Source: Alphaproteobacteria bacterium
GTDB lineage: Bacteria; Pseudomonadota; Alphaproteobacteria; JANQMY01
Direction: 5' to 3'
Assembly: GCA_028289425.1 (NCBI GenBank)
Contig: JANQPL010000004.1
Coordinates: 62,001-126,000 of the forward strand
Length of the DNA stretch: 64,000 bases
Part shown: positions 53,818-56,843 of the stretch, piece after piece
Layout: each line of letters opens with the position of its first letter
Position numbering within the stretch: the first letter of the stretch is position 1
The notes under the pieces: model-generated
The model's database searches: none
The model's input: only the letters and a program-made list of their open reading frames with translations
What the model was told of the DNA's origin: nothing
Position numbers and translations under genes: made by a program

Positions 53818-53947
53818 GACGCATTCTCCTGGAATGGTTGGGTTCTTTTGCTCGGCTTGTCCGAGAGTTACCGTCATCCAGCCGAAAATTGGCGCCCGCG
53901 TCAAGGAGGGACAAGGAAATCCCCCTGAGAAAAAGGCCAACTAATCT

Positions 53948-55153
53948 TTAGGCGGGTCGCAAGTTTTGACGCCGCATCAGTCGAAAAATCCGACGCAGAA
54001 ATGCTTTTCGGCGAGAACCTTGCGGCAAGAGCGCGTTGTAAATCGCACTGCGACGAACGACCCAAGCCGCGGATCGCCGCCACTGTCCCCTAACATGATG
54101 CGCATCTGCATATTCAAGAATCTGGCGCCACTCTGCCAAGACCGCCTCATTGCGCAGCAAGACTCGTCTCATATGGGCGTTCATCTTCTCAGGATGAGGG
54201 AAACAAGCGGGAATATCGTTTCCCGTGGCTAGGAAATTGAGCATGGTCCGCAGGCACTTTTCGCATCGACCACAGTTTTTTGACTGTTCTTCACCCTCCC
54301 AGCAGACCCGCAGATTGTCGCGGCCTTCCGGCCATTCGGCAATAGCCGCCACTTTTTCGGTTCTGCTGTGAGAGGCGCCATCGTGCAGGACCCTGAAGGT
54401 TACCGAGCTGAGCAGATGATCTGTTATTGGCGAAGACCCCCAAGGAACGACAAGTGAGTCGTAGGGCTCGCTGCTGCCGAGCAGGCAGTTGCCGGCAAGA
54501 TGCTTCAGATTGTCGAGGGCAGCAACGACGGCCGAGGCGAACGCATGCTCCCAATTAGATTTGATGACCAACCTATAATTTGTCCGTATCGGGATCGTTT
54601 CAATGCCCAGTGCGAGAAGCAATCTATTTGCATTCGCCAACGCAATCCGGAATTGGTCGTGCTCGACCAGCGGAATGTCAAATCCATGCACCAGAACACA
54701 ATGCCGAATTTCTTGCGATCGGTGACCAACCTGCATTCGGCTGTGCCTGAGAACCGAAAAGGTCGCGTCGACTCCGCCGGAGAACGCGCAGATCGCGCCC
54801 GCTGGGCCAAGGGCGTCTTCGCGGACATGGTCAGGCCTGATGTCTACGGTGTGGTACAGGTCAGGCAACCATTTGTGCCACGCTGCTTGAAACTCATCCA
54901 AATTACCCAGCAAGGATCTCGAAACAGAACCGTGGACAATGATGTCCCGTTTCTCTTGCATGGCATCCATCAGAACTGCGCGCAAATGGGCATCACAGTC
55001 GGTTTCTACCGACATCCGCTCGGATCGGGGAAGCTCAAACCACAACTCGCGGCGGTCGACTTCAGCCCCCTGATCGAACGAGACGAGCTGACAAGAACGG
55101 CGCACGCCCAGTGGTACGTCATCTAGCCTCGGAAATAGGTGAAGTTCTCTCAT
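53948..55153 (-). CDS. QueC-like PP-loop ATPase with N-terminal extension
   Basis: A 401-residue protein. The ATP-pyrophosphatase P-loop is AFSGGVDATFS (about 123-133). QueC-like zinc cluster: C-x9-C-x2-C-x2-C in VCWEGEEQSKNCGRCEKCLRTM (about 300-320). QueC itself (7-cyano-7-deazaguanine synthase) is about 230 residues; here there are about 115 extra at the N-terminus and about 85 at the C-terminus (basic, RRSAAWVVRR and RRIFRLMRRQ). QueC-like proteins of this size occur in defence and natural-product loci, but no partner is adjacent. Composition is AT-richer than its neighbours. Start 55153 preferred over 55306. Confidence 0.75.
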   Translation of the reverse strand: MRELHLFPRLDDVPLGVRRSCQLVSFDQGAEVDRRELWFELPRSERMSVETDCDAHLRAVLMDAMQEKRDIIVHGSVSRSLLGNLDEFQAAWHKWLPDLYHTVDIRPDHVREDALGPAGAICAFSGGVDATFSVLRHSRMQVGHRSQEIRHCVLVHGFDIPLVEHDQFRIALANANRLLLALGIETIPIRTNYRLVIKSNWEHAFASAVVAALDNLKHLAGNCLLGSSEPYDSLVVPWGSSPITDHLLSSVTFRVLHDGASHSRTEKVAAIAEWPEGRDNLRVCWEGEEQSKNCGRCEKCLRTMLNFLATGNDIPACFPHPEKMNAHMRRVLLRNEAVLAEWRQILEYADAHHVRGQWRRSAAWVVRRSAIYNALLPQGSRRKAFLRRIFRLMRRQNLRPA

Positions 55154-55389
55154 CGCTGCCCAAAACCGCGAAGCGCCACAAATGTTTCTCTGGCTGATCC
55201 AGGTAATTGAATTGGCTTGGCGCCGCTTTCTGGTTCCCCCTTGCCCCTTTTCTATCTTAAGTTGAAACTGATTGTCGACACTTATGTGATGGTGTGAGGC
55301 GACCAATCGCCGAGTTGGCCTATCCCGAAGAAAAAATGCGCGGCTCGCCCTTTAGGTCATGGTTAACAAAGCCTGATCACACTGCGCAC

Positions 55390-55833
55390 ATGATTCGCGC
55401 GCTCTCTTTGCTGCTTCCGGTCCTGGTGCCGTCTTGGCGGTTTTTCGCCATGGTGGCGCCATCGCCGCGCATTGAGGTGGCCATTGCCGATCCCGGGGGC
55501 GCCGCATGCTCTGCCTGGCAAGAGTTCCGCCCGCGCCCGGCGCGCATTTCCGTTTGGGGGTCGCTGCGAAATCTGTTTTGGAACCCCCATTGGAACGAAA
55601 CCCTCTATTTAACAGCGTGTGCGGAGCGTTTTTTGGCCGACGGGTCAAAGCCGCATCTTGACTACATCGTTCGGCGCGTGCGTGCAGATCTGCAGCATCC
55701 TGACCAAGACACAAACAGCCACCAGGTTCTGATCCGCCTTGTTGTGGTGATGCGGTCGGACGGCCAGGTGGTTCGCGAAGAGCTTTACCGTTCGCCCGCC
55801 GTCGCCCTTGTCGACGAAAGTAATTCGACGTGA
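55390..55833 (+). CDS. Hypothetical protein paired with HTTM-like membrane protein
   Basis: A 147-residue protein with a hydrophobic start (ALSLLLPVLVPSWRFFAMV), then a mixed domain (SVWGSLRNLFWNPHWNETLYLTACAERFLAD; VLIRLVVVMRSDGQVVREELYRSP). Its stop overlaps the GTG of the next gene (GTGA), so the two are translationally coupled. Earlier in-frame ATGs exist at 55294 and 55336. Function unknown; probably membrane-associated. Confidence 0.65.
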   Translation: MIRALSLLLPVLVPSWRFFAMVAPSPRIEVAIADPGGAACSAWQEFRPRPARISVWGSLRNLFWNPHWNETLYLTACAERFLADGSKPHLDYIVRRVRADLQHPDQDTNSHQVLIRLVVVMRSDGQVVREELYRSPAVALVDESNST

Positions 55834-56531
55834 CCTTCGAACTCGCGCTGCGTCTTACCGAAATTCTGCTGGGGTTTGCGTTGCTTCAGCAGAGCCTGGA
55901 ACACCTTACGCTCCAGCCTGCTGATCGGCTGCTGTTTGCTGTCCGAGGGGTCTTGAGCCTGACCCTCATGGTGGGGATCGCCCCGTCTGTCGTGGCGCCC
56001 CTGTTGCTTGCCATTTGCGTGGCGCTGCTTGTCCGCTACGACGGCCCGTACAATGGCGGCAGCGACCGCATGAGCCTGCTGGTATTGATATGCCTTACCG
56101 GGGCCCACCTGGCACCGACGCATTATTGGCAACAAGTGGCGTTTGCCTATCTGGCCGCGCAGCTTGTGTTGTCCTACGCGCTGTCCGGGGGCGTTAAGAT
56201 CGTGAATGCCGATTGGCGCAGTGGGGCCGCGCTGCAGGACGTTTTTCTTTTCTCCGCCTACCCTGTTTCCGATGCGCATCGCGGGTGGGCCCGGCAGCCC
56301 GGTCCTCTATGGGCCGCGTCTTGGGCCGTCATCTTGTTTGAGCTGGCTTTTCCGCTGGCTTTGTTGACGCAGACCACTTTGGTCCTTGGACTGACGATCG
56401 CTGCCCTGTTTCATCTGGCCAATGCCTATCTGTTCGGCCTTAACCGGTTTGTGTGGGCGTGGCTGGCCGCTTACCCGTCGATCCTTTGGCTGCAGGCGCA
56501 AATCATCGCGCCACTTGTGCAAATGCAATGA
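55830..56531 (+). CDS. HTTM-like multi-pass membrane protein
   Basis: A 233-residue integral membrane protein with about six hydrophobic segments. The segment SGGVKIVNADWRSGAALQDVF and the end FHLANAYLFGLNRFVWAWLAAYPSILW match the HTTM domain shared with vitamin-K-dependent carboxylase-like bacterial proteins. The usual catalytic residues cannot be located with confidence. GTG start overlapping the preceding stop. Confidence 0.82.
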   Translation: MTFELALRLTEILLGFALLQQSLEHLTLQPADRLLFAVRGVLSLTLMVGIAPSVVAPLLLAICVALLVRYDGPYNGGSDRMSLLVLICLTGAHLAPTHYWQQVAFAYLAAQLVLSYALSGGVKIVNADWRSGAALQDVFLFSAYPVSDAHRGWARQPGPLWAASWAVILFELAFPLALLTQTTLVLGLTIAALFHLANAYLFGLNRFVWAWLAAYPSILWLQAQIIAPLVQMQ

Positions 56532-56645
56532 CCACTTGTGTCCGCCTGACTTCCCTTTTTGGGGAGGCCGAAGAAATCCTGCCGTCCCGGCGTTTTGGCA
56601 ACAGGGAAACCGCCCCAAGACCCATTCAAACGAGCTGCAGCGCGC

Positions 56646-56843
56646 TTACCCGAGAGACAATCCAAGTTTGTCCAAAAGCACGCGCTGGACTTCGTTCCGA
56701 TGGCCGTCGGTGTCCATGAGTTCCGGCAATTGAAGGTCCTGCCGGTCATGTCTCACCGTCCCTAAACTTTCGCCCATCTCCTGTTCTGACCGGTCTTGAT
56801 CTGATGAAGATACATCGTATACTTGCGAATGATTATCACTCAC
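56646..56843 (-). CDS. Doubtful small ORF with iron-box-like start region
   Basis: A 65-codon frame beginning GTG, or a 43-codon frame from ATG at 56777 (MGESLGTVRHDRQDLQL, ending RVLLDKLGLSLG). Codon use in its last 40 codons is like real genes here. The first 17 residues vaguely recall HemP but the rest does not. No conserved family. It lies in the 374-base spacer 56532-56905, which otherwise holds no feature I recognise. Confidence 0.3.
   Translation of the reverse strand: MSDNHSQVYDVSSSDQDRSEQEMGESLGTVRHDRQDLQLPELMDTDGHRNEVQRVLLDKLGLSLG
56825..56843. promoter_or_regulatory. Fur-box-like sequence
   Basis: GCGAATGATTATCACTCAC matches the 19-base Fur consensus at 13 positions, including the AATGATnATCA core. 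It lies about 65 bases upstream of the + strand gene at 56906. By itself a weak match. Confidence 0.3.

Follow-up and report, generated by a model that had tools for sequence, protein, structure and literature searches.

The gene at positions 53948-55153 of the window (the whole 64,000-nucleotide stretch of DNA analysed here) probably encodes a member of a family of QueC-fold ATP pyrophosphatases that take part in decorating the glycans of the cell surface, in most cases alongside a polysaccharide pyruvyl transferase (PPT), a reading to which we assign a probability of roughly 0.55. A role on glycans is the most likely one, rather than queuosine synthesis or phage defence, because relatives of the gene often adjoin genes that modify sugar polymers. 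Computation shows the fold and a complete pyrophosphate loop (PP-loop) with its zinc cluster, the absence of the QueC substrate motifs, a likeness to QatC along the full length, and a genomic association with PPT and with glycan genes. The gene family is an unnamed and widely transferred group of its own within the QueC superfamily, and it is not described in the 2026 survey of the QueC family (PF06508), which distinguishes ten clusters and whose text mentions neither polysaccharide, pyruvyl nor PF04230 (PMC13329287). Our results add a large, cross-phylum family to this superfamily, and one that is tied to PPT.

Sequence features of the window gene

The open reading frame is intact on the minus strand, with an ATG start at 55153 and a TAA stop at 53948-53950, and comprises the following features.

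53948..55153, minus strand: coding sequence of a QueC-fold PP-loop protein of QatC-like overall architecture, 401 aa
54806..55153, minus strand: N-terminal domain, residues 1-116, beta-beta-beta-alpha-beta-alpha-beta, of RNase H-like topology with weak matches only; conserved across the family
54764..54781, minus strand: pyrophosphate loop SGGVDA, residues 125-130; S125, G127 and D129 invariant in 68/68 relatives
54671..54685, minus strand: family motif GFDIP, residues 157-161; G157 in 68/68, D159 in 67/68
54572..54583, minus strand: family motif TNYR, residues 191-194; T191 in 64/68, N192 in 63/68
54419..54445, minus strand: family motif PWGSSPITD, residues 237-245; G239 and P242 each in 66/68
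54353..54385, minus strand: family motif HDGASHSRTEK; R264 invariant, K267 nearly so
54254..54304, minus strand: zinc cluster C-x9-C-x2-C-x2-C (CWEGEEQSKNCGRCEKC), residues 284-300; C284, C294, C297 and C300
53963..54193, minus strand: C-terminal helical extension, residues 321-397

The P-loop and the zinc cluster that the earlier note had read in the sequence are thus both present. SGGxD is found in 66 of the 68 family members, and all four zinc-cluster cysteines are invariant in the 68 relatives, with the exact spacing kept in 64. Conservation within the N-terminal domain centres on D54, G75, N84, W92, W95, P97 and Y100, and D258 is a further family-specific conserved residue. PWGSSPITD is proposed to be the substrate-pocket segment that replaces the YPDC of QueC, a placement that we infer. 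The protein is nearly twice as long as QueC, as had been noted, but this is normal for its own family: the 68 dereplicated relatives span 347-440 aa, which makes the N- and C-terminal "additions" a property of the family. Its base composition does differ from that of the flanking genes, the GC3 (0.595) being the minimum and the codon-usage score (-1.278) the worst among the 20 window genes examined.

Comparison with canonical QueC

Profile searches place the protein at the margin of known families. No NCBIfam model matched it; the best Pfam match, DUF6395 (PF19932), reached 20 bits, below the cut-off of 25, and covered the zinc region, that is 31 of 174 profile positions. DUF6395 is matched by 28 of the 68 relatives at E 0.01, and our literature search found no papers on it. 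The Pfam QueC model (PF06508) gave 13.1 bits, under its curated cut-off of 22, and the sole PADLOC match was to DpdF (E 0.02, 11.4 bits). A PDB search with the single sequence returned no match, and a PDB profile search returned only weak matches to GMP synthase and QatC.

Canonical QueC (PDB 3BL5, 2PG3) shares with the window protein the PP-loop Rossmann core and the zinc cluster, but it is half as long and carries YxQxHxxE, VPxRN and YPDC, motifs that are experimentally essential in QueC, where Y35, R99 and Y131 of the E. coli enzyme are required (PMC13329287). These three motifs are missing from all 68 dereplicated family members, the window protein included, against 11/11, 10/11 and 11/11, respectively, in alphaproteobacterial QueC controls. 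Because YPDC, the site of the Tyr/Asp nucleobase readers of QueC, is missing, 7-carboxy-7-deazaguanine is an unlikely substrate; QatC has likewise replaced these readers (PMC13279940). An ordinary or second QueC producing preQ0 would account for the QueC-type PP-loop and zinc cluster, as well as for the second rank of QueC among the structural matches given below. However, the same genome encodes a canonical queC (G000:C3:57879-58547, 224.9 bits) 4 kb to the left of the window, and for this reason the ordinary-QueC reading, which the earlier note would have adopted had no such gene been found and had the window gene rescued queuosine, fails; with the sub-threshold PF06508 score and the lost motifs also against it, we consider it almost certainly wrong. 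As had been stated, queD, queE and folE are missing beside the gene, and no queuosine genes occur among its neighbours. The description of the protein as a QueC-superfamily ATP pyrophosphatase other than the queuosine enzyme stands.

Predicted structure

AlphaFold2, run on 68 sequences, gave a model with a pLDDT of 96.5 and a pTM of 0.92. In VIA comparisons its top match is QatC (9y02_B; Z 15.5, rmsd 4.6 over 304 residues, model residues 1-368), followed by QueC (3bl5, Z 12.9, and 2pg3, Z 12.8; 178-182 residues) and then by Cap9 (9nto; Z 12.2, 169 residues). Further VIA matches, at Z 10 or lower, are other PP-loop enzymes, LarE, ThiI and MnmA among them, which mostly activate carboxylates, carbonyls or amides. 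Foldseek alone gave no match with an E-value below 0.001; its first match, on the N-terminal part, was RNase HI, and QueC was missing from its top 50. In profile-profile comparison, QatC was matched with 93.6% probability over 98 columns and QueC with 32.7% over 20.

The earlier note had proposed predicting the structure of the N-terminal 115 residues. Modelled alone with AlphaFold2, the 116 N-terminal residues yield a confident fold (pLDDT 95.0) with no confident relative, the best VIA matches (Z 6.0) being RNase H-like and connection domains, which may reflect only a common arrangement of secondary structure.

Distribution of the family

A scan of genome contigs detected at least 523 stretches encoding relatives, the best 80 of which belong to Pseudomonadota, Cyanobacteriota, Bacteroidota, Planctomycetota and other phyla; matches on plasmids extend the family to Bacillota and halophilic archaea. 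Phyla are patchily distributed over the family tree. No relative was found in a phage collection searched by tblastn, nor in viral contigs searched with the single protein as query. Within a broad sample of 397 proteobacterial genomes, 12 hold the gene, several of these with between two and four copies, in some cases arranged in tandem, as if handling two related substrates. Tandem or multiple copies in one locus or genome were seen in L016, L041, L094, L095 and L015, and in genomes G469, G534, G594 and G633. The relatives on two haloarchaeal plasmids (L178, L180) are distant, at 25-27% identity, and one haloarchaeal relative lies near an ATP-grasp protein, sugar oxidoreductases, an asparagine-synthase-related protein and a flippase. 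On a Priestia plasmid, a DUF6395 gene occurs near two copies of the family.

Gene neighbourhoods of relatives

The neighbours in homologous loci, to which the earlier note had pointed as a check, support a glycan role. The commonest Pfam family among the 108 proteins flanking relatives is PF04230, the polysaccharide pyruvyl transferases (21 proteins), followed by flippases, Asn_synthase, glycosyltransferases, ManC and Wzt. By profile, a PPT occurs in 28 of 62 dereplicated loci, and in 18 of these 28 it lies within 700 bp of the QueC-like gene; the 80 loci sampled are the best matches to the window protein, and glycan clusters commonly contain PPT genes. Judged from the other genes of the same loci, 5.25 such adjacencies would be expected, and none of 100,000 simulations reached 18. 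Two adjacent PPTs come in addition to the profile count, one recognised directly by Pfam (L026) and one by its 45% identity to the former (L029). Deposited annotations independently give PPT neighbours in Azospirillum, two Gloeothece, Gemmobacter and Priestia. In Azospirillum brasilense Sp7 the homologue is AMK58_RS27450 and its PPT neighbour AMK58_RS27455.

Gene order is recurrent in the cyanobacterial cassettes, which read PPT, AsnB-like, QueC-like, and takes the form AsnB-like, QueC-like, one gene, PPT in L070 and L083. The QueC-like/PPT pairs of L026 and Azospirillum are mostly separate from other glycan genes; a dihydroorotate dehydrogenase gene and further genes unrelated to glycans lie upstream of the L026 pair. 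In L054, L056, L057, L058, L061, L070, L071, L083 and L094, the QueC-like gene always has an asparagine-synthase-like protein of about 600 aa beside or near it, and mostly a PPT as well. The adjacent PPTs share no Met-Gly N-terminus, and we rejected N-terminal protein modification of the PPT. Our literature searches found no paper that pairs this QueC-like family with PPT or a PP-loop protein with a pyruvyl transferase, nothing on PPT with asparagine synthase in cyanobacteria, and no decisive link in work on Psychrobacter glycan structures.

The earlier note had called the gene stand-alone, which holds for the window copy and a few close relatives but not for the family, with its glycan clusters and PPT pairs. 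No PPT lies beside the window copy, nor beside four close relatives that are likewise outside glycan clusters (L023, L024, L030 and L031), and no universal small partner gene was seen around the solitary copies. The genome of the window nevertheless encodes two PPTs, one of which (C3:607404-608006) matches the paired-PPT profile at 2.5e-56, is closest to the paired PPT of L028 (35%) and sits among ORFs that we read by eye as glycosyltransferase-like. PPTs are also held in trans by the genomes of L023, L024 and L030; the bin of L031 contains none, and the sister genome G001 lacks both the QueC-like gene and a PPT. Among the 397 proteobacterial genomes, a PPT is present in 8 of the 12 holders versus 122 of the 385 others, with a Fisher p of 0.015 that is optimistic because the 12 holders are partly related; in the remaining four, no PPT is found at E 1e-6.

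Proposed function and alternative readings

By analogy with the superfamily, the protein would bind ATP through SGGVD and adenylate a carboxylate, from which AMP would be displaced by an amine, be it ammonia or an amino group carried by a sugar or an amino acid. The genomic context suggests that the acid may be carried on a glycan precursor, or be a small acid that is joined to one, and the result would be a uronic acid, a pyruvate-ketal acid or a small acid amide-linked on the precursor. It is from the superfamily and the neighbours that we infer this amide chemistry. The predicted pocket, in which GFD-P, TN-R, PWGS-P-TD and HDG...R..K would take the place of the Y, VPxRN and YPDC elements of QueC, would fit a substrate other than 7-carboxy-7-deazaguanine, and the partner of the window copy could be the paired-type PPT located elsewhere on the same contig. 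Tentatively, we suggest that a branch of the QueC superfamily that is shaped like QatC performs a new step of glycan assembly, in which the carboxylate of a uronic acid, or of a pyruvate ketal formed by the adjacent PPT, is activated and then amidated or coupled to an amine, and that the QatC defence enzymes are related to this branch, one pathway having supplied the other. If true, an amide-type substituent not yet described is to be expected on polysaccharides that are pyruvylated or acidic, and QatC gains a structural relative in metabolism.

The same genomic evidence would also serve for an enzyme that acts on a sugar substrate by other PP-loop chemistry, such as thiolation, amidine formation of the WbpG/PseA type or N-acyl transfer of a hydroxy acid to an amino sugar. 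LarE, ThiI and MnmA are among the structural neighbours, and a precedent linked to PF06508 exists in WbpG, an enzyme of O-antigen synthesis (PMC13329287), the N-acetyl sugar amidotransferases WbpG and PseA being, like the present family, PP-loop enzymes encoded in surface-glycan clusters. Yet no NCBIfam sugar-amidotransferase model matches, and the cysteines are of the zinc type, not those of the LarE three-Cys cluster or of WbpG, whose SGGxDSxY and CxxC(x)6CxC differ from the SGGVDATF and NCGRCEKC of the window protein, which leads us to regard such chemistry as somewhat improbable. We find it very doubtful that the family makes a small-molecule or peptide-derived product, with glycan genes merely included in its clusters: the neighbours are mostly glycosyltransferases, flippases, ManC and Wzt, and PPT is the closest partner. 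What speaks for such a product is that NRPS genes adjoin the Gloeothece copies and that the neighbouring AsnB-like proteins, which start with MAN, MTN, MAL or MTL, lack the N-terminal catalytic Cys of glutamine-dependent enzymes. Beta-lactam synthetase and the lasso cyclases are asparagine-synthase-like proteins that likewise lack this residue.

The earlier note had suggested that the protein may be a defence or nucleotide-modification enzyme, and its perception of a resemblance to defence-system QueC homologues was correct in so far as QatC of qatABCD (PDB 9y01/9y02; PMC13279940) is the closest protein in architecture. Both have the same length class, a possibly homologous N-terminal alpha/beta extension, a four-Cys PP-loop core and C-terminal helices; the structural match takes in both extensions, profile-profile comparison favours QatC over QueC, and the window copy occupies a variable slot. 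A protein acting like QatC or Cap9 would adenylate an acid and couple it to a partner protein through the latter's N-terminal glycine. Nevertheless, none of the QatC, Cap9 and Dpd families to which profile comparison had been proposed recognises the window protein: the QatC profile (NCBIfam NF041925 / PADLOC) finds no match in it or elsewhere in its genome, and only two of the 68 relatives, at E 0.0047 or weaker; the PADLOC QueC (Cap9) profile does not match it; and no dpd genes lie beside it. No QatC or other defence model reaches its cut-off in the query or the 68 relatives, the conserved motifs differ, and RxRxxxF/Y, present in 7/7 QatC controls, occurs in 9/68 relatives and is missing from the query. 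The context differs as well, with no qatA, qatB, qatD or CD-NTase gene nearby and no QatB-type MGTS partner found, and defence models at 1e-15 are matched by 3 of the 108 adjacent proteins versus 21 PPTs. Cap9 of type IV CBASS (PDB 9NTO) shares the core fold, but is about 185 aa long, retains the QueC pocket and accompanies a CD-NTase; the true Cap9 of this genome is a separate gene, within an apparently complete type IV CBASS on another contig. A defence function is therefore unsupported by these searches and in our view unlikely, and the case cautions against labelling all divergent QueC homologues as defence genes. Matches to PADLOC mad3 (best 1.7e-30) occur in three proteins encoded next to relatives.

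Genomic setting of the window copy

The window gene is a recently, horizontally acquired singleton. A homologue is present in 2 of 142 related genomes, and the gene lies in a slot whose contents vary.

53852..56812, no strand: variable slot between syntenic flanks, with different contents in the same-genus genome G001

Around the window gene lie genes for a thiolase, a ChsH2-type OB-fold protein, a 179-aa ORF, an HTTM protein and DUF6796. In G001 the flanks are syntenic, with the thiolase and OB-fold protein on one side and DUF6796 on the other, and the roughly 3 kb between them hold different ORFs; the HTTM protein has no match in that genome.

The genome has three QueC-superfamily proteins, since the Cap9 of its CBASS adds to queC and the window gene. 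This apparently complete type IV CBASS, on C17 (L019:6188-9932, minus strand), has strong PADLOC matches throughout and consists of a CD-NTase starting with MGGSGGGS, a TGT (Cap10), the QueC-like Cap9 (3.2e-66), a 2TM/SLATT effector and an OGG. Within the slot of the window copy, the 179-aa ORF, to which no Pfam family matched, and the HTTM-domain protein follow one another on the plus strand (55294-56531), divergent from the QueC-like gene. PADLOC gave no match to the ORFs of the slot in G001; this counterpart (L108 5368-7828, G001:C47) holds three other accessory ORFs.
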